Source of the DNA: an uncultured Eubacteriales bacterium
GTDB taxonomy: Bacteria > Bacillota > Clostridia > Christensenellales > CAG-1252
Direction: 5' to 3'
Length of the DNA stretch: 46,520 nucleotides
Assembly: GCA_902797685.1 (NCBI GenBank)
Contig: CADBTQ010000051.1
Span: forward strand, 1-46,520
In this document: in pieces, positions 15,669 to 46,311 of the stretch
Layout: every line of letters begins with the position of its first letter
Numbering within the stretch: position 1 is the stretch's first letter
The notes under the pieces: model-generated
What the model saw: only the letters and a program-made list of their open reading frames with translations
What the model was told of the DNA's origin: nothing
Database searches by the model: none
Program-made: the position numbers and the translations under genes

Positions 15669-16673
15669 ATGAGCATCGTCAAAAAATTATCCGGACGGGA
15701 CGGTCAGATCTACGTGCCGTTTGAAGAACGCACGGGCGACAAATCGGTCGTTTATTTTACCCGCGACCTCTCTCCCGAGGGGCTCAAAAAGATCTACGAA
15801 AAAGTCAACGGCAACCTGACCGGCAGGATCGCCGTCAAGTTGCACACCGGGGAAAAGAACGGTCCCAACATCATCCCTGCCGCGTGGGTCAAGGAACTGT
15901 TGTCGAGCGAGCCCACCCTCAAAGACGCGACCATCGTGGAGACCAATACCTACTACGAGGGGGATCGTTACACCACCGAGCAACACCGCGAGACCCTCAA
16001 AGTCAACGGCTGGACCTTCTGTCCCGTGGATATCATGGACGAAGAGGGTACCGTGCTACTGCCCATCGAGGGCGGCAAGTGGATGAAAGAGATGTCCCAC
16101 GGCTCGCACATGCTCAACTACGACTCGATGTTGGTGCTGACCCATTTTAAGGGACACACCATGGGCGGTTTTGGCGGCAGCAACAAAAATATCGGTATCG
16201 GTTGCGCCGATGGTCGTCTCGGCAAAAAATGGATCCACACCCACGAGGGTAAGGGGATGTGGTCGATCGCCGAAGAGGAGTTGATGGAGCGCATCAGCGA
16301 GTCCACCAAAGCCACCGTCGATCATTTCGCCCCCCATATCACCTTTATCAACGTCATGCGCAATATGTCGGTGTCCTGCGATTGCGAAGGCACCGCCGCC
16401 CAGCCCGTCGTGACCCCCAACGTGGGCATTTTGGCGTCTAACGATATTTTGGCGGTCGATCAAGCCTGCGTGGATCTGATCTACGCGATGGAGCCCAACG
16501 ATCGCAAAGCCATGGTCAAGCGCATCGAGTCCCGCCACGGTCTGCGCCAGTTGTCCTACATGAAAGAGTTGGGCATGGGCAACGACCGCTACACCCTCGT
16601 TGATCTGGATAACGGGGAAGTGGAGATCTCGTCGCACGAGGCGGTCAAGGACGTCAAACCCTTCCGCCGATAA
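15669..16673 (+). CDS. DUF362 family protein
   Basis: A 334-residue soluble protein that I recognise as DUF362-like from its layout: a start with repeated references to ligand-like loops (VKLHTGEKNGPN, about 56-67), a central HFKGHTMGGFGGSNKNIGIG segment (about 159-178) and a late DQACVDLIYAMEP block (about 267-279). Many DUF362 proteins carry ferredoxin-type cysteine motifs; here only a CDC pair (about 237-239) and isolated cysteines are seen, so a 4Fe-4S cluster is not evident. Biochemical function is not established for the family as far as I know. It stands alone with its own promoter, ATAGGAGG ribosome site and terminator, and may or may not belong to the neighbouring redox cluster. Confidence 0.75.
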   Translation: MSIVKKLSGRDGQIYVPFEERTGDKSVVYFTRDLSPEGLKKIYEKVNGNLTGRIAVKLHTGEKNGPNIIPAAWVKELLSSEPTLKDATIVETNTYYEGDRYTTEQHRETLKVNGWTFCPVDIMDEEGTVLLPIEGGKWMKEMSHGSHMLNYDSMLVLTHFKGHTMGGFGGSNKNIGIGCADGRLGKKWIHTHEGKGMWSIAEEELMERISESTKATVDHFAPHITFINVMRNMSVSCDCEGTAAQPVVTPNVGILASNDILAVDQACVDLIYAMEPNDRKAMVKRIESRHGLRQLSYMKELGMGNDRYTLVDLDNGEVEISSHEAVKDVKPFRR

Positions 16674-35950: not shown

Positions 35951-36814
35951 ATGCTCGGAGTGGATTTGGTGATATTGGCTGCGGGATTGGGACGGCGTTT
36001 CGGCGGGGACAAACAGGTGTGCGAAGTGGACGACAGAGGGCAACTTTTGATGGAGTACACCCTCTACGACGCTTGTCTTGCGGGGGTAGAGCGCGCGGTC
36101 TTGGTGATAAGGGAGCAAGACCAAAGCAAGTTCGCCCCTCTTTGCGACAGGTGGAAAGGCAAGGTCAAGATGGAGTTTGCCTATCAGATCCCGCCCGCCG
36201 CATACGGGTTTGAGAGGGAGACCCCCTTGGGGACGGGACACGCTCTGCTTTGCGCGGCGGGCGCGGTCAAGGGCTCGTTCGTCCTCGTCAATGCGGACGA
36301 CTACTACGGCAAAGGGGCGATCGCCTTGGCGGTAGCGCACGCAAAGAGGGGCGAAAACGCGCTCATCGGCTATCCTTTGGGCTCGACGGTGCCCCCCGTG
36401 GGGCGGGTGTCCCGCGGGATCGTGCTGCAAGAGGACGGCTATCTCAAAGGGGTCGTCGAGTGTAGCACTTACCGAGTGGGGGAGCGAATTGCTGTCGAGG
36501 ACGGCAAAGTCAAGCGATATTTGCCCTCGTTCGTTCCCGTTTCCCTCAACCTGTTCGCGTTGTTCCAAGGGATATTCGCCTCGGCGGGGCGGGTGTTCGG
36601 CGGCTTTTTGTTGGAGGCGGACGAGGGGGCGGAATGTCTGCTCACCCAAGTGATCGCGGACTATCTCTCCCGCGGCGGGACGATCAAAGTCGATTCCTCT
36701 CCCGACCGCTGGATGGGCATGACCCACCGTAGGGAGTTGGAGGAAGTCAAACGATACTTGGCGGCGTTGCAAAAGAGCGGGGCGTATCCCTTGCGTTTGG
36801 CGGAGGCAATATGA
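35951..36814 (+). CDS. Nucleotidyltransferase (sugar-nucleotide pyrophosphorylase-like)
   Basis: A 287-residue GT-A-type NTP transferase. The N-terminal nucleotide-binding signature LAAGLGRRFGGDKQ (9-22) and the metal-binding VNADDYYG (about 112-119) are clear; TPLGTGHALLCAAG (about 93-106) is the substrate-pocket loop. It would join a nucleotide to a sugar phosphate or similar alcohol phosphate. It is shorter than GlmU or GalU, and substrate specificity is not readable. The next gene, overlapping by 4 nt (ATGA), encodes a hexapeptide-repeat protein, so together they recall the two halves of GlmU as separate proteins. No ribosome site is seen; a TATAGT 5 bp before the ATG could give a leaderless transcript, but its -35 match is poor. 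Confidence 0.85.
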   Translation: MLGVDLVILAAGLGRRFGGDKQVCEVDDRGQLLMEYTLYDACLAGVERAVLVIREQDQSKFAPLCDRWKGKVKMEFAYQIPPAAYGFERETPLGTGHALLCAAGAVKGSFVLVNADDYYGKGAIALAVAHAKRGENALIGYPLGSTVPPVGRVSRGIVLQEDGYLKGVVECSTYRVGERIAVEDGKVKRYLPSFVPVSLNLFALFQGIFASAGRVFGGFLLEADEGAECLLTQVIADYLSRGGTIKVDSSPDRWMGMTHRRELEEVKRYLAALQKSGAYPLRLAEAI

Positions 36815-37416
36815 CGGATTGGTGGCAGGACGAAGATTTTGTTGTAGACGAGCAAGCGCCGTGGGCGATTTTGGACGAGTTGCCCGCTTTGATCGAGCGC
36901 AAGGCTACGCAAAAAGGCTATCCCCAAGTGCGGCAAGGGGTGTGGATCGCCCCCACCGCGTTCGTTGCCTCTACCGCCGTATTGCTGCCCCCGTGTTTGG
37001 TGATGGACGGCGCGACCGTGGGGGAATGGGCGTATCTTAGGGGCAACTGTATCATCGGTAATGGCGCACGCGTGGGACACGCGGTAGAGGTCAAAGGGAG
37101 CGTCCTCATGCGAGGGGCTACCGCCGCCCACTTCAACTACGTCGGAGACAGCGTGCTGGGCGCGCACGCTCATTTGGGCGCGGGAGCGGTGCTATCCAAT
37201 CTTCGGTTGGACGAGGGGTCGGTCAAGGTGACTTGGCGAGGGGAGAGAGTCGACAGCGGTCGGCGCAAATTGGGCGCCATCGTGGGCGCTTACGCCCAAA
37301 TCGGGTGTAACGCCGTCCTCAACCCGGGGACGGTGGTGGAGCCTAAGGCTTGGGTGTTGCCTTTGGAGCGGGTGACGGGCTATCGCCCCAAAGAAAAAGG
37401 CGACTTTCGACCTTAG
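36811..37416 (+). CDS. Left-handed beta-helix (hexapeptide-repeat) protein
   Basis: A 201-residue protein. After about 45 residues come hexapeptide repeats with the [LIV]-G-x4 pattern (GVWIAPTAFVASTAVLLPP, ATVGEWAYLRGNCIIGNGAR, GDSVLGAHAHLGAGAVLSNL), followed by KLGAIVGAYAQIGCNAVLNP. This is the fold of acyltransferase domains such as GlmU-C and of nucleotide-sugar pyrophosphorylase C-terminal domains; the AHFNYVGDS and AGAVLSN segments echo the GlmU acetyl-CoA site region. It starts at 36811, with GGAGG 4 nt upstream, overlapping the nucleotidyltransferase stop. An acetyltransferase working with that enzyme, or a non-catalytic partner, are the options. Downstream lies a predicted antisense RNA whose end overlaps this gene. 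Confidence 0.85.
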   Translation: MTDWWQDEDFVVDEQAPWAILDELPALIERKATQKGYPQVRQGVWIAPTAFVASTAVLLPPCLVMDGATVGEWAYLRGNCIIGNGARVGHAVEVKGSVLMRGATAAHFNYVGDSVLGAHAHLGAGAVLSNLRLDEGSVKVTWRGERVDSGRRKLGAIVGAYAQIGCNAVLNPGTVVEPKAWVLPLERVTGYRPKEKGDFRP

Positions 37417-37485
37417 GGGGAGTCGTCAGCCGCCGAGTTGACCGACAAAGGGGGTTGTCGGGTAGGGCGAAGGGGGTCGCCTTAC
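37391..37485 (-). ncRNA. Predicted small RNA with repeated CCCCCT motifs
   Basis: A complete minus-strand unit: a promoter at 37521-37492, then two 7-bp hairpins (37483-37464 and 37461-37442), both with the identical loop CCCCCT, a third single-stranded CCCCCT (37420-37415), and a terminator-like hairpin (37414-37397) followed by TTTTTCTT (37398-37391). The unit is about 95 nt and its 3' end is antisense to the last codons of the hexapeptide-repeat gene. C-rich loops in Gram-positive sRNAs pair with G-rich ribosome sites, which suggests a translational regulator. The alternative is that the hairpins belong to the plus-strand 3' UTR. No expression evidence is available. Confidence 0.45.
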
Positions 37486-37491
37486 GTGTAC

Positions 37492-37521
37492 AGTATAGGT
37501 CATAATCCTTCTACTTGGCAA
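37492..37521 (-). promoter_or_regulatory. Promoter of the predicted small RNA
   Basis: On the minus strand TTGCCA (37521-37516), 18-bp spacer, TATACT (37497-37492). The fit to the promoter style of this genome is good, and no protein-coding gene lies downstream on this strand. Confidence 0.55.
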
Positions 37522-37563
37522 GGTCGAATTGTACCGTTAAAAGGACAGTCCGACCTTTTGTTT
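37520..37563 (+). terminator. Terminator of the nucleotidyltransferase/hexapeptide-repeat operon
   Basis: AAGGTCG (37520-37526) and CGACCTT (37551-37557) can pair around a 24-nt loop, or AAAAGG/CCTTTT closer in, followed by TTTTGTTTT. The long loop makes it weaker than the other terminators here. Confidence 0.6.
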
Positions 37564-37652
37564 TAGGGCTCAAGCGCAAGTTGCCGTTCCTCTCTTTGGG
37601 CGCAAAAAAATACAAAGGCAGGCAAAAAGAGACGTGGTTTTGCGCCAAACGG

Positions 37653-37704: not shown

Positions 37705-38820
37705 ATGAGTGATCGGGACAGGATCGAGTCGATAGACGATCAAATCGCCGCCCTTTACGTCGAGCGCATGGCGTTGATCAAACGTCAAGCGGAAGAAGAG
37801 CCGATCTCGGGTCAAGCGGATGAAAAGTCGGTCGTTTCCCGCGTGACCAAAGACGTCCCCGACGACATGGCGCGGTATCTCAAGCAGGTGTTCGACGGGG
37901 TGTTGGAGACGGGGCTTGCCTACCGCCGTAGTTTGACCCTGCCCGACTCGCCCTTGCGCGACAGGATACAGGGGGCGCTGTCGGCTGCCGACCGTACCTT
38001 CCCCGCTCGCGCGGTGGTCGCCTGCCAAGGGGTGGAAGGCGCTTATTCGGGCATCGCCGCCTCTCGCGTGTTCGCCATACCGCAGACGGTGTTTTTCAAG
38101 GATTTCGACGGGGTGTTTTCGGCGGTGGAAAAGGGCTTTTGCCGCTACGGCGTGCTGCCGATCGAAAACTCCGCCGTGGGCAGCGTCAATGCGGTCTACG
38201 ACCTCATGAAAAAGCACCGCTTTTATATCGTGCGTTCGGTCAGATTGCAGGTCAGCCACCATCTGTTGGCAAAACCCGGCACGTCCTTGGACGAGATCAC
38301 CGAGGTGTTCAGCCACGAGCAGGCGCTCAACCAATGTTCGGCGCTTTTGGCGAGTTTGCCCCAAGGGGTCAAGGTGACGGTCGCCACCAATACCGCGGTC
38401 GCCGCCAAGACGGTGGCGGAGAGCGATGGCAAAACGGCTTGTATCAGCAGCAGAGATTGCGCCGCCCTTTACGGGTTGAGTATCCTCAAAAGCAACGTGC
38501 AGGATCGAGACAACAATTTCACTCGCTTTATCGTCATCAGCAAGGATTTGACCATCTATCAAGGCGCCGACCGCATCTCCATCATGATGACCTTGCCCAA
38601 CTACGCTGGCTCGCTCAATCGCACCCTCAACAAGTTTTCGACCTTGGGACTCAATCTCACCAAGTTAGAGAGCCGCCCCCTGCCCAACACGACGTTTGAG
38701 TTTATGTTCTATTTTGACTTCGAGGGACGCCCCGACGATCCCGCCGTTTTGTCTCTTTTGTCCGAGTTGGACTTGGGCTCGGAGGAGTTTGCATTCCTCG
38801 GCGCTTATCGGGAGATTTAG
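37705..38820 (+). CDS. pheA: Bifunctional chorismate mutase/prephenate dehydratase
   Basis: A 371-residue enzyme catalysing the steps from chorismate to phenylpyruvate in phenylalanine synthesis. Residues 1-80 form a type-II chorismate mutase (RIESIDDQIAALYVERMALI at the start). The prephenate dehydratase domain (about 100-280) has CQGVEGAYSGIAA, GVLPIENSAVGSV, SHEQALNQC and the catalytic NFTRFIVIS. The C-terminal ACT domain (about 290-371) carries LESRPLPNTTFEF, the ESRP motif that binds phenylalanine for feedback inhibition. The first residues of the dehydratase motif read ACQG rather than the usual YLGP, a modest departure. It is a single gene with its own promoter; no other aromatic-pathway gene is nearby. 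Confidence 0.93.
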   Translation: MSDRDRIESIDDQIAALYVERMALIKRQAEEEPISGQADEKSVVSRVTKDVPDDMARYLKQVFDGVLETGLAYRRSLTLPDSPLRDRIQGALSAADRTFPARAVVACQGVEGAYSGIAASRVFAIPQTVFFKDFDGVFSAVEKGFCRYGVLPIENSAVGSVNAVYDLMKKHRFYIVRSVRLQVSHHLLAKPGTSLDEITEVFSHEQALNQCSALLASLPQGVKVTVATNTAVAAKTVAESDGKTACISSRDCAALYGLSILKSNVQDRDNNFTRFIVISKDLTIYQGADRISIMMTLPNYAGSLNRTLNKFSTLGLNLTKLESRPLPNTTFEFMFYFDFEGRPDDPAVLSLLSELDLGSEEFAFLGAYREI

Positions 38821-39882: not shown

Positions 39883-42800
39883 TTAGTTCCAGCTCGTGCC
39901 GTTGTAGGTGTACGTTCTGCCCTTAGCCGCCGTAACCGAGCCGCCCATCAAGGTCAGAGCGGATTGACTTTCGGTATAGGTGATATTGAGGTAGAAGGTC
40001 ACCGAGTGGATGCCCGAGCCGCGCGTGCCGTAGCCCTCTTTGCTGGACATACTGAACGAAGCGTTGCTGCCCGTGACGACCCTGCCGCCCGAGCCTTCGC
40101 CATAGACTTTGCCGGCTAAAGTACCCGTCACGTTGAGAGTACCGCCCGCCACGATCAATTTGGCTTCGCCTTTGCCCGAGGGGTAGTTGGTGACGGGTTT
40201 GTTGCTATCCGTCCAACCTCCGCCGTAGATGATGGCGCTGCCCGTCACGTTGAGGGTGCCGCCCGACTCCACGCGGACGGTGCTGCCGTTGAGCATCTTG
40301 AACTTTTTGCTCACGGTAAAGGTCCCGCTCTTGACGGTGATGGAGTATTGATAGGGAAGACCCAGTATCACCTTGTCCATACTGACGGTCACTTCGCTGA
40401 TGATGGGGATACCCGTCTTGATATCCATGCTCAACGATCCGGTCTCCACGTTGCCGTACATCTTGATATCCACGGTGGTGGGATACTTGTTGGCAAAGTC
40501 CTTAGCCCCTGCCGACGCGCTGTAACCCTCGCTGAACTTGATGGTCATATAACCGCTGGTGAGGTTGAGCACGGCGCCCGAAGACGCGATGGCGGGCGCG
40601 TCCGTCTTGTTGTACTTGCTGTCCGCCCACATGACCGCGTGTCCGATGACTGTGGCGCCCGAACGAATGGTTTGCAACACTTGCACGTTGGGCATCTCGT
40701 AGATGGAGAAGGGGGCGATACCTTTGGCATTTTTGTAGCCGGTGATCAAAGTGCCCGATCCCTTTTCGTCCAAGTACATACCCACGGTACAAGTACCGCC
40801 CTGGAAGTCGCGCACCACGAAAGGCATCTTGAGGACGCCGCCCGATACCACCTCCAGTGCGCCGTCGCCCTTGACGTAGCCGTAGCAGTCCATGGTGCCG
40901 GTCACTTTGATGCTTGCGCCCTCGAGGACGTTGATCTGCGCGTAGTTGCCCGAGGTATGACCTTGGAACTTTTGTCCTTCGCAACTGACGACGCCGCCCA
41001 CGTTGAGGGTACCGCTGACCGTCATCGTGCCGCTCTTGACGGTGAGCAAGCGTTTGAGATAGGTGCTCTCTTTGGCGATATCGATGTAATAGCCTTCGCT
41101 GCCGCCGTCGGTGGTGACGTTGTTGCTACTGCTGCCGTCGTAAGGCAGGGTCAACGTGCCCGCGATGGTCACGTTGCCCGACACGAAGGCGTCGCCGATG
41201 AGGATAAAGGTGCCCGTCTTGCCGCTGATCTCTTCCACCGTGTAGTAGGACGAGCCGCTAAGCACCGCCTTGATGGAGTAGGTCACCGTCTTCTCCGCGC
41301 CCGTGTAGTTGGTCGAGGCGGGCAGGGTGATGACAACGGTGTACACGCCGCCGTCACGACCCGAGATGTTCGTACCCGTTTCGCCCGTGGTGATGCACTC
41401 GTATTCCAAAACGGCGCCGTCGGTATTGTTGGAAGTCGCGCCGAACGCGCTGACGAAGGGGATGGCGTTGCCCGTAAAGGTGGCGGTCAATTCTTCGTTG
41501 GCACTAATCACGCCCGTCGCCTTATCGAGTACCACCTGCAGTCCCACTTGCGAGGGATAATCCACGTAGTTGATACTGTTGGGATTGTAATAGGCGTAAT
41601 AGGTCGTCACGTCGCAGGTGGGGATCACGCTGCTGTTGACCCATCTCCAGGCGCTGCCCAAAGCAAAGCGATAGCTTTCCAACGTGTCGGTGGTATAGGT
41701 CTTACCGCCAAACGAAGGCAGGGTCGAGGGCAGGGTCGGAACGGCTTTGTTGACCACCAATTTCTTGGCGGCGCCCACCGACAAACTGTAGTTGGCTGCC
41801 GAGGACTTGGAGAGGTCCACGTTGAAGTTGTAGCCCGCGCTCGAGGCGTTGGCGCCTTTGGTGTAAGCGGTGGTGTAGCCCACGGTCACCGCCGACAAAG
41901 TATCGTCGTAGGCAAAGCCTTGGGCGGTGCAAGCGAAATCGGTAGGCACGTTGTCTCCGTAGGTGATGGCGTCGTGCGCCGATACGGTCAGGGTCAACGC
42001 CTTCTTGCCGACGGTCAGGGTGCCTTGGGTGTAGCTGATGGCGTAGTTGTCGCTCTCCAGTCCGCTCAAAGTCACCGCAAACGTGGTCGCGGCGGGAGAG
42101 GTCGTGTAGTCGCAGTCGACCGCGATCGAGCCGCCCAGTACCGAGGCGTTGTCGTCGTAGACGAAGCCCACGTAGCGGTAGGTCAAAGCGGGCATCGCGT
42201 CACCGTAGGTGATGGAAGGCACGGTGGCGGACACGGTCAAAGCCGCTTTGGTCACGGTCAGGGTACCGGTGACGAATTCGTAATGATAGTTGGCGGTATC
42301 CGCGGTAGCGGGGGTGATGGTGTGATCGCCCACGTTGCGCCAATCGCTCTCCAAGCCGTAGGTCACGTTTTGGACCTTGTCGCTGCCGTAGAGGTTGGTC
42401 GCTTGGAAGTTGTAGACAGGCGCCACGCCGTAGACGGCGGACACGTTGGTCGCTTTGACCGTGGCGGTACGCTTGCCCACCACCACGTTGGCTTTGGGCA
42501 GCGAGAAGGAGTAGTTGGCGTTGACGCCCGCGGTGGCGATGGCGTCGGAATAAGTGCCCGCGCCGTTGCCCACACGGTAGGTGGTGGACACCGACACGAA
42601 GTTGTTGTCCCAAGCGGTCAAGCCTTCTACAACGAGCAGGGCACGCAACTGCTCCCTGCCGATAGCGTCGCCGTAGGTCACGTCGATGCCGCTCGTTAAG
42701 GAGACGGTCAAGGTCTTGGGCGACACGGTCAAGGTCGCCGCTTTGACCGCGATCTCGTAGTTGGAGAGGGCGGTAAAGGTGGCGGTGATGTCGTAGCTGC

Positions 42801-45800
42801 CGACCCCCTTGCGTTGGGCGTAGGTGGTCGCCAAGGTGATGGCGGCGTTGTCCTCATCCTCGCCCAAGAAACGCTCGGCGGTGTAGGTCAAAGCCGGTAC
42901 TTCGTCGCCGTAGGTCGCGGTCTTGTTAGCCAACGTCACGGTGGCGGCGCGTTTGGTGATGGTGACGACGTATTCCCCTTCGGTGGGAGTCTTGCCCTCT
43001 TGGGTGAGTTGATAGTACACGGTGTAGGTGCCCACGTTGACCCACCCTTCCAACGAGGTGAGGGTGTAGGTGCCTTCCTGCCCGTCGAGGGAGTAAGTCA
43101 CGGTCACGCCGCTCTCGGCGGGAATGACCTCGCCGATGTGCAAAGTCGCGTCGTACTCGGCGATCACGTCGTTGGCGGTGTGCGCGATATTTTGGATGCT
43201 GATGACGATCACCAGATCGTACGACAGATCGTAGCAATCGGTCACGTCCTCCAAGGACACGTTGTAAATGTGGTAAGCGGTGGTCCAAGCGAATTGATCG
43301 CCCAACTCGCCGTCGTCCGATTGATACACGCCCACTTGACCCGAGGTGGTCTCCAATACGCCGCTCATCGAGTCGCCCGTGTACATATCGGTGATACCCT
43401 CGGACGTAAAGGTACGGCTGTAGGTAACGTCGTTGTTGTACGCCTTGGTACGGTCGAGCGCCAAAGTGATGGCGCGTTTGCCCACGGTGAGCAAGCCGTC
43501 CACCGTGCTGACGTCGTAGTTTTGAGCGACTTCGTCCTGTTGGACGGTGACGATCACTTGATAGGTGTCCACCACGCTGCCCACGCGGTAGGCGGTGGAG
43601 TAGGTCACAGTGAGTTGATCGCCGTTGACCACGTTGCCCGAGGTAAAGGCGTAGGTGCAAGCCGCCACGTTAAAGGCGTTGCCGTAGGTCACTCGGTAGT
43701 CGTCGGGCACGTCGATGGTGACCGCGCGGCGGGTCACGTCTACGGGAGCGGACAAAACGGTGAGGTTGTAGTTTTCACTGACTTCGTCGCCGTCCGCGGG
43801 GCTAGCCGAAATATGGGCTACACCCACGCCCACGCCCAACGTCACGCGGTAATCGGTGGAATAGAGTAGGTCAAACACATCTTGTCCGTACACGCCTTCC
43901 ACCACGCTGTAATTCCAACTGCTCACGTCAAGCGTTTCACCGTAGATACGGCTGGCGCCCGACACTTGCAAAGTCGCTTCCCTCTTGCCCACGATGACGT
44001 TGGCGGTGGGGAGCGTATAGGTGTAGTTGGCATTGGGAGTCGCGGTGGTCACGATGGATTTGCGATAGGTACCCGCGGCGTCACCCACTTGATAGTCGCA
44101 CGATACGACGATAAAAGCGGGATCTTTGTCGAGCATACCCTCTACCGACAGCAAGCTTTCCACTTTGCCGTCGGGGATGGCGTCGCCGTAAGTCACGTTG
44201 ATATTGCCCGACAAGGAAACATTGATTGCTTTGGGCGTGACGTCGAAACGGTCGCCCACGTAGCTGAACGCAAAGTTGGAATAATAGTCCTCGTCTACTT
44301 TGACCGAGGCGGTATAAGTGCCCACGTCGTCGCCCGCTTGGTAGGGGGTGGTCAAAGTCACGTACTCGGCGGTCACCACGGTGCCGAAGGTGTCGCCCTC
44401 CACGACGTAACCCAAGGTGGGTTGATCGCCGTAGATCAAGTCGAGAGCGGTCGCATTGACCGTCAAGGGGGCTTTGCTGACCACGTAAGTCAACTGGTAG
44501 GGGGCGGGCTCGTAGTTTTCGCCGCGCGTAACGCGCACGTTAATGGTATAGGTGCCCACGTCCACCAACTGGGGCAATTCGGTCGAAAAGTCGTCCATAG
44601 ACCCCACGCTGTACTCGGTCACACAGTCGTTGACGGTCACCGCCACCGTGTGGGGCGCGCCGTCGTATTGGTGGGTGAGGTCGTCGCCCGAAGGCAAACG
44701 CACGTTGCTGATCATACCTTTGATGATCTCGCAGTTGAGGTCGTAGGTGATGTCGTAACTCGAGGTCACGATGGACTTGTCGGTGTTTTTGGCGCTGACG
44801 TAGACCACCTTGATCGTGCCTTCGTCCGACGTGTAGGTCTTGCGGTCGCTGCCCGAGGTGACGTAGGACAACTCGATGGTGTCGCCCGCAAAGATCTTGT
44901 CGTTGCTCTCCCTATCCACGATCAAACTGGAACGGATCGCCGCGCCTGTGTAGCCGCGCGACTCGCGGTTGGTCACGGTGATGGGACGGGGTTTGACCTT
45001 GAGGTTGCCGTCCATGATGGTCACTTCGTAGTTGGCGGAAGACAACCCTTCGGCGGACAGACGGTAGACTTGGGCGGGCGAGCCGGGTTGATATCCGTCG
45101 GCGTGTACCAACATGTCGCTAAGATCCACCGCGCTCTCGTTGTCGTCGTAGACGAATCCGTCGTACGTGATCGACCACTCGGCGCTATCGGGGATGGGGT
45201 CGCCGTAGACGATCTCCAAGTCGCCGATGGTGGCGGTAAGGTGCGCTTTGTCTACTGTCACCTCGATGGGCGTAACACTGGATTGAGGCTCGAAGCCATT
45301 TGCCGAGGCGGTCAAGCGCAGGGCGAATTGATAGGTGCCCGCTTGCAGATTTTCCACTTTGACGGTGTCCTCTTTGACCTCGTCATCGCCCAACAACCAA
45401 GCGTATTCGTAGGTGATGCCCTCGCCGATCACTTCGGCTTGCTCAACGCGAAGATTGAGGTTGTCGCCGTAGGATAGGGACGTGCTGCCCCAATACATGG
45501 GCTCGGCTACGGGCGCTATCGACCAACGGGGACGGAAGGTCGCGTCCTTCTCAAACACGGTCGAGCGGGCTTCGTACTTGTCGCCGTCTTGGTCAAACCA
45601 CCCGTCGAACACGTACCCCTCTTTGCTAAGAGCGGCCACGTCGGGTATGTACTCGTTGCGTTTGCCCGTGTAGGTGATGGGTTTGTCCCCGCCCACGAAG
45701 TTGACGGTCAAACTGACGTCCGCTCTGAGGTTGGCGGTGACGGTCTTGCCCGACACGATGTAGTCGAAGGTGTCGTTCCACCCCTCAAACAGCCAAGTCG

Positions 45801-46311
45801 TATTGGAATCGGTGCCGCCGTTGAGTCGGTCGAGCGCCCGCTCGAGTTCGGCGATAGGCTCGCTTGCCGCCTGCCCGTAGCCGACTTGTTGGGTGGAGAT
45901 GACCTTGTCGTCCACGACAAAGTCCACCTTAAAGGTCTTGATCTCCCATTGCGCCCACAGATCGAAGGACAATTTGTTTTTGCTGCCCTTGACCTCTTCG
46001 GCATACTCTTCCACCAAGTCCGCTTCGTACGGCTCGTTGCCCTCTTGGTCAAACGTCCACCCCGCAAAATCGTAGCCCGTGCGGGTACGATTGGGAGTAC
46101 GCGTGGTCTTGCTCCAAGTACGAGTGGTGGTTTCGTCCTCGTCGTAGTTGTTGTGATACACGACGCTGATCGTCACCTTGGTCGGCTCTTCCACCGGCTC
46201 TTCTTGGGTCGTCTCTTGGGGCTTATCCTTTTCGCCGCACGCCGACAAAGCGAACGTGAGCGCTAAGGTGAGTACCACCAATACTGCTATCCAAAATACT
46301 GATTTTTTCAT
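39883..46311 (-). CDS. Giant surface lipoprotein with InlB-like, MBG and beta-helix-like repeats
   Basis: A 2142-residue protein with a lipoprotein signal peptide (ALSAC, Cys25). Three InlB-type B-repeats follow (GYDFAGWTFDQEG, TTWLFEGWND, GYVFDGWFDQDG; about 45-270). About ten MBG-type beta-sandwich repeats come next, each marked by a Y-G-D/N/E/V core (IVYGDPIPD, LIYGDQPTLGY, VTYGDAIPDG, ATYGDEVPAL and others; about 350-1470), and then a C-terminal region of about 550 residues with regular SGTLNVTG-type turns, likely a beta-helix. No catalytic motif is seen; adhesion or ligand binding on the cell surface is the likely role. AGGAGG lies before the ATG, and the gene follows 17 bp after another minus-strand gene, suggesting an operon. 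Confidence 0.9.
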   Translation of the reverse strand: MKKSVFWIAVLVVLTLALTFALSACGEKDKPQETTQEEPVEEPTKVTISVVYHNNYDEDETTTRTWSKTTRTPNRTRTGYDFAGWTFDQEGNEPYEADLVEEYAEEVKGSKNKLSFDLWAQWEIKTFKVDFVVDDKVISTQQVGYGQAASEPIAELERALDRLNGGTDSNTTWLFEGWNDTFDYIVSGKTVTANLRADVSLTVNFVGGDKPITYTGKRNEYIPDVAALSKEGYVFDGWFDQDGDKYEARSTVFEKDATFRPRWSIAPVAEPMYWGSTSLSYGDNLNLRVEQAEVIGEGITYEYAWLLGDDEVKEDTVKVENLQAGTYQFALRLTASANGFEPQSSVTPIEVTVDKAHLTATIGDLEIVYGDPIPDSAEWSITYDGFVYDDNESAVDLSDMLVHADGYQPGSPAQVYRLSAEGLSSANYEVTIMDGNLKVKPRPITVTNRESRGYTGAAIRSSLIVDRESNDKIFAGDTIELSYVTSGSDRKTYTSDEGTIKVVYVSAKNTDKSIVTSSYDITYDLNCEIIKGMISNVRLPSGDDLTHQYDGAPHTVAVTVNDCVTEYSVGSMDDFSTELPQLVDVGTYTINVRVTRGENYEPAPYQLTYVVSKAPLTVNATALDLIYGDQPTLGYVVEGDTFGTVVTAEYVTLTTPYQAGDDVGTYTASVKVDEDYYSNFAFSYVGDRFDVTPKAINVSLSGNINVTYGDAIPDGKVESLLSVEGMLDKDPAFIVVSCDYQVGDAAGTYRKSIVTTATPNANYTYTLPTANVIVGKREATLQVSGASRIYGETLDVSSWNYSVVEGVYGQDVFDLLYSTDYRVTLGVGVGVAHISASPADGDEVSENYNLTVLSAPVDVTRRAVTIDVPDDYRVTYGNAFNVAACTYAFTSGNVVNGDQLTVTYSTAYRVGSVVDTYQVIVTVQQDEVAQNYDVSTVDGLLTVGKRAITLALDRTKAYNNDVTYSRTFTSEGITDMYTGDSMSGVLETTSGQVGVYQSDDGELGDQFAWTTAYHIYNVSLEDVTDCYDLSYDLVIVISIQNIAHTANDVIAEYDATLHIGEVIPAESGVTVTYSLDGQEGTYTLTSLEGWVNVGTYTVYYQLTQEGKTPTEGEYVVTITKRAATVTLANKTATYGDEVPALTYTAERFLGEDEDNAAITLATTYAQRKGVGSYDITATFTALSNYEIAVKAATLTVSPKTLTVSLTSGIDVTYGDAIGREQLRALLVVEGLTAWDNNFVSVSTTYRVGNGAGTYSDAIATAGVNANYSFSLPKANVVVGKRTATVKATNVSAVYGVAPVYNFQATNLYGSDKVQNVTYGLESDWRNVGDHTITPATADTANYHYEFVTGTLTVTKAALTVSATVPSITYGDAMPALTYRYVGFVYDDNASVLGGSIAVDCDYTTSPAATTFAVTLSGLESDNYAISYTQGTLTVGKKALTLTVSAHDAITYGDNVPTDFACTAQGFAYDDTLSAVTVGYTTAYTKGANASSAGYNFNVDLSKSSAANYSLSVGAAKKLVVNKAVPTLPSTLPSFGGKTYTTDTLESYRFALGSAWRWVNSSVIPTCDVTTYYAYYNPNSINYVDYPSQVGLQVVLDKATGVISANEELTATFTGNAIPFVSAFGATSNNTDGAVLEYECITTGETGTNISGRDGGVYTVVITLPASTNYTGAEKTVTYSIKAVLSGSSYYTVEEISGKTGTFILIGDAFVSGNVTIAGTLTLPYDGSSSNNVTTDGGSEGYYIDIAKESTYLKRLLTVKSGTMTVSGTLNVGGVVSCEGQKFQGHTSGNYAQINVLEGASIKVTGTMDCYGYVKGDGALEVVSGGVLKMPFVVRDFQGGTCTVGMYLDEKGSGTLITGYKNAKGIAPFSIYEMPNVQVLQTIRSGATVIGHAVMWADSKYNKTDAPAIASSGAVLNLTSGYMTIKFSEGYSASAGAKDFANKYPTTVDIKMYGNVETGSLSMDIKTGIPIISEVTVSMDKVILGLPYQYSITVKSGTFTVSKKFKMLNGSTVRVESGGTLNVTGSAIIYGGGWTDSNKPVTNYPSGKGEAKLIVAGGTLNVTGTLAGKVYGEGSGGRVVTGSNASFSMSSKEGYGTRGSGIHSVTFYLNITYTESQSALTLMGGSVTAAKGRTYTYNGTSWN

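Follow-up and report, generated by a model that had tools for sequence, protein, structure and literature searches.

Sequence analysis of the window, the whole 46,520-nucleotide stretch of DNA under study, points to a small RNA (sRNA) gene on the minus strand at 37391-37485, between a hexapeptide-repeat transferase-like gene and pheA (Table 1). As a prediction this gene is well supported, because a promoter, a hairpin at the predicted start, three hairpins in all and an intrinsic terminator occur together, and because of the outcome of a genome-wide scan for such units. All three hairpins present the same CCCCCU motif in a loop. The analysis establishes the sequence elements, the predicted fold, its rarity and the use of AGGGGG as a Shine-Dalgarno variant; that the RNA is transcribed with these exact ends, and that its loops are accessible, pair and repress, is inferred. 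It would be a well-formed candidate sRNA in a lineage with almost no described regulatory RNA.

Table 1 Coordinates of the predicted sRNA, its elements and the flanking genes within the window
Feature	Position	Strand	Basis
Hexapeptide-repeat transferase-like gene	36811-37416	+	Pfam Hexapep
pheA, prephenate dehydratase	37705-38820	+	Pfam
-35 box TTGCCA	37516..37521	-	sequence
-10 box TATACT, spacer 18 nt	37492..37497	-	sequence
Predicted sRNA transcript, ~90-95 nt (~92)	37391..37485	-	start placed from -10 box
Hairpin 1, GGCGA[CCCCCT]TCGCC, 5 pairs; outer GUA/UAC pairs past A.C mismatch	37466..37481	-	
Loop 1, CCCCCT	37471..37476	-	
Hairpin 2, CCGACAA[CCCCCT]TTGTCGG, 7 pairs	37442..37461	-	
Loop 2, CCCCCT	37449..37454	-	
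Terminator hairpin, 7 + 5 pairs, 2x2 internal loop, apical loop CCCCCTAA	37399..37434	-	
Third CCCCCT, within terminator hairpin apical loop	37415..37420	-	
Terminator U tract, TTTTTCTT	37391..37398	-	

Promoter, hairpins and choice of strand

The TTGCCA-18-TATACT promoter named in the original prediction is present on the minus strand (37521-37492), where it matches the consensus at 10 of 12 positions; the TTGCCA hexamer is also found upstream of three tRNA genes in the same genome. With +1 placed at ~37485, hairpin 1 begins at the predicted start. The same earlier reading described a self-contained unit of ~95 nt, and with its own predicted promoter and intrinsic terminator, a hairpin followed by a U tract, the locus agrees with that description. 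It had also proposed two successive 7-bp hairpins with an identical CCCCCT hexaloop and a third CCCCCT. The shared hexaloop is there, and hairpin 2 does have seven pairs, whereas hairpin 1 has five uninterrupted Watson-Crick pairs, or eight if counted across the A.C mismatch. The third CCCCCT is likewise present, not as a separate element but inside the terminator hairpin, whose 8-nt apical loop (CCCCCTAA) contains it.

Folding of the 95 nt gave -37.8 kcal/mol, against -21.3 +/- 3.1 kcal/mol in shuffled sequences (z -5.4), and 0 of 200 shuffles were as stable. The minimum free energy (MFE) and centroid structures agree in placing all three CCCCCU motifs in hairpin loops. Direct reading of the sequence shows CGA..CCCCCT..TCG in each of the three modules, which may have arisen by duplication of a single hairpin, followed by paired changes in the stems. 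At the 5' end, AAGGCGAC (37476-37483, minus strand) is complementary to GTCGCCTT (37397-37404, minus strand) in the 3' arm of the terminator, so that hairpin 1 and the terminator could swap partners.

The plus strand could instead be the functional one, as a structured 3' UTR of the hexapeptide-protein mRNA that carries AGGGGG loops (mimics of ribosome sites) or a G-quadruplex, with readthrough to a plus-strand terminator at ~37522-37565. Both hexaloop hairpins form on that strand too, hairpin 1 gaining a G-U pair and a slightly better outer stem. The window's single canonical G-quadruplex motif, GGGGGTTGTCGGGTAGGGCGAAGGGGG (37449-37475, plus strand), lies there as well; the genome has 44 such motifs. 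This reading is nevertheless improbable: it leaves the promoter on the minus strand, the U tract and the position of hairpin 1 at the predicted start as mere coincidences, the terminator stem fits the minus strand better, its two G-U pairs forming there only, and the plus-strand MFE structure of the same 95-nt segment alone lacks the hexaloop hairpins. Among the functional readings we therefore strongly favour the minus strand.

Rarity of the unit and search for relatives

We scanned the 1.78-Mb genome (98% complete) for CCCCCT hexaloops on stems of at least five Watson-Crick pairs and found three, two of them at the sRNA locus. Two hairpins with the same hexaloop within 60 nt occur at only two places in the genome, the sRNA locus being one, compared with a single case in 12 shuffled genomes together. 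The other pair (L262 ~15896-15958) consists of ATCTGTTGTCACAGAT twice, 46 nt apart, as an exact repeat; it is surrounded by a GATGCGATATATC repeat and looks like a repeated operator or repeat element.

A scan for units, defined as a promoter with at least 10 of 12 matches followed 50-130 nt downstream by a hairpin and T tract, started from ~526-533 promoter-like sites in the genome and about 150 in shuffled genomes. It returned 20 units, against 0-3 (mean 1.8) per shuffled genome; intergenic composition is not kept in the shuffles, so part of this excess reflects AT-rich spacers, and per promoter-like site the excess is about threefold. Eight of the 15 other distinct intergenic units are tRNA genes (ARAGORN) and one is a TPP riboswitch (Rfam), which argues that the scan mainly recovers true RNA units. 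By folding density the sRNA locus comes fifth among the units, and no other unit has C-rich loops. Six further units outside called genes (L278:496 +, L217:13070 -, L197:9855 -, L288:6510 +, L233:19644 + and L235:6981 +) had no tRNA or Rfam match at their positions and are candidate sRNAs or leaders.

No Rfam 15 family matched the predicted sRNA at E values up to 10. The covariance model R1 found only the locus itself in its own genome, with no paralogue, and gave no convincing match among 248 relatives and 396 members of the order (overlapping sets), under stricter Infernal filters that weak homologues can escape. Its best non-self matches lacked the CCCCCT loops and were rejected; their E values were 0.002 and 0.05 per genome, in a search that spanned hundreds of genomes. 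A free-stem descriptor model was set aside after the aligner put its designed stems in the wrong places. DNA searches of 41 genomes gave chance matches of 15-29 nt only, and the triple-CCCCCT and double-CCCCCT-plus-T-tract patterns were run on 61 and 121 genomes. Pattern matches were folded on the matching strand, a few being judged from the matched string alone; among those folded, only the window's own locus had CCCCCT in two hairpin loops. Phages and plasmids yielded no match, and an 18-nt match on viral contig L338 was set aside since it covers hairpin 2 only and such matches are about as numerous as expected by chance.

In the relatives examined the gene neighbourhood is not conserved and nothing is equivalent to the intergenic region of the sRNA: pheA sits next to shikimate genes, and the hexapeptide gene is found beside the NTP transferase. 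PheA is about 45-50% identical within the broad 'genus', and even the nearest one detected elsewhere, from a Clostridia MAG of roe-deer rumen, reaches 65% identity. These neighbours point to an uncultured member of the Clostridia as the window's organism. Small RNAs often turn over faster than this evolutionary distance, so that missing homologues (none in five same-genus, 14 same-family and several hundred same-order genomes) are weak evidence against function. With neither a homologue nor synteny, selection on the CCCCCT loops cannot be shown, and the case for it would come solely from the three modules inside one RNA.

The locus might also be a product of chance, stable inverted repeats between two genes that are neither transcribed nor functional. 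That no relatives carry it, and that shuffling alone produces units at the rate given above, would fit such an origin, which we nevertheless consider very improbable given the z score of the fold, the three CCCCCT loops in a single unit and the number of units at this folding density, five in the genome versus two in 12 shuffled genomes.

AGGGGG sites and possible modes of action

CCCCCU pairs perfectly with AGGGGG, the hexamer that the original prediction had proposed to look for in start regions. In a crude gene set of 666 ATG starts with a good Shine-Dalgarno sequence, AGGGGG occurs 19 times at -20..-4, six times at -60..-44 and 0 times at +40..+56, whereas AGGAGG is found in 144 of the 666. 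The canonical Shine-Dalgarno sequence here is AGGAGG-like, and AGGGGG is a true minority variant of it in this genome; the 16S 3' end was not found in the genome's contigs. From these counts, the loop would select about 3% of genes, and AGGGGG is a plausible target site for the sRNA. Translations read by eye suggest that the genes with AGGGGG starts resemble dapB, dxs, a RecJ-type nuclease, a glycerophosphodiesterase and a prepilin; they are functionally mixed, with no common theme and no standout target. Pfam searches found neither Hfq nor CsrA in the genome, so the predicted sRNA would act without them.

On balance, we think that the locus probably encodes a stand-alone regulatory RNA of ~92 nt that represses G-run ribosome sites in trans and without Hfq. 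It would be transcribed leftward from its own vegetative promoter and end at the intrinsic terminator, its three hairpins serving as scaffolds that each display CCCCCU in the loop. Most likely the loops would base-pair with Shine-Dalgarno sites that contain a G-run (AGGGGG or near it) on other RNAs and thereby keep ribosomes from loading on a minority of mRNAs; with three copies, contact could become more probable or one RNA could hold several sites. Against this explanation stand the missing homologues, the mixed functions of the genes with AGGGGG starts, the incomplete match of CCCCCU to the canonical AGGAGG-like sites, and the short pairing, since 6 nt in the loop of a stable stem allow about six pairs only.

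A real minus-strand sRNA could also work in other ways. It could be a sponge that takes up a C-binding protein or G-rich RNA, or act in cis as an antisense RNA against the hexapeptide-protein mRNA, which it overlaps at the 3' end and 3' UTR. Multiple identical exposed motifs are a trait of sponges such as CsrB and RsmZ, and the three loops resemble them in this; the predicted sRNA is also complementary over its full length to the plus-strand region 3' of the hexapeptide-protein gene, with its terminator overlapping the last codons of that gene. We regard these modes as rather unlikely, as the loops carry CCCCCU rather than the GGA of CsrB/RsmZ-type sponges, no CsrA was found in the genome, and identical loops on different stems are not required of an RNA that acts purely as antisense.

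Comparison with known sRNAs

C-rich loops that act on ribosome sites, invoked in the original prediction as a Gram-positive sRNA device, are indeed established in Firmicutes (PMC9410917, PMC3053349), and in S. aureus C-rich loop motifs are described as a recognition signature for ribosome sites (PMC3053349). The candidate resembles this class in its predicted promoter and intrinsic terminator and in the exposure of the motif in loops in both the MFE and centroid structures. RsaE/RoxS and RNAIII bind the ribosome site through C-rich motifs that are looped or single-stranded (PMC3053349), but the predicted sRNA gave no covariance-model match to them and differs in hairpin number and layout. The staphylococcal IsrR uses three C-rich regions against Shine-Dalgarno regions, and two of the three lie in hairpin loops (PMC9410917); the predicted sRNA is like it in belonging to Firmicutes and in having three C-rich regions that include hairpin loops. 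IsrR, however, is under Fur control and is conserved among staphylococci, stems included, whereas no conservation was found for the predicted sRNA, whose third motif, unlike that of IsrR, lies in the terminator loop. No clear Fur box was seen by eye at ~37490-37560.

A similar architecture is that of the alpha-r14 sRNAs, in which an identical anti-Shine-Dalgarno motif, CCUCCUCCC, is carried on three hairpins with diverged stems (PMC10746234). In alpha-r14/NfeR1 of the Rhizobiales, as in the predicted sRNA, one motif sits on three differing stems, but the motif is CCUCCUCCC in Alphaproteobacteria and CCCCCU in Clostridia; with identical unpaired CCUCCUCCC absent and no Rfam 15 match, the predicted sRNA does not belong to that family. 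The device is known; the RNA itself appears to be new and is assigned to none of the known RNAs named above. With alpha-r14 it would make two independent cases in which a single anti-ribosome-site motif is repeated on three scaffolds, and this suggests a layout that has been reached more than once. It also leads to a simple prediction, that a G-run as opposed to AGGAGG decides which ribosome sites respond. More tentatively, it could represent an sRNA class specific to a lineage of uncultured Clostridia that lack Hfq and CsrA, its three identical loops reading AGGGGG, a G-run variant of the Shine-Dalgarno sequence, and not the canonical AGGAGG, so that one RNA would address a sequence-coded subset of mRNAs.

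Elsewhere in the window, the minus strand at 39883-46311 encodes a predicted surface protein of 2142 aa with a lipoprotein-like start and, from reading of the sequence, many repeated MBG/YDG-like domains.
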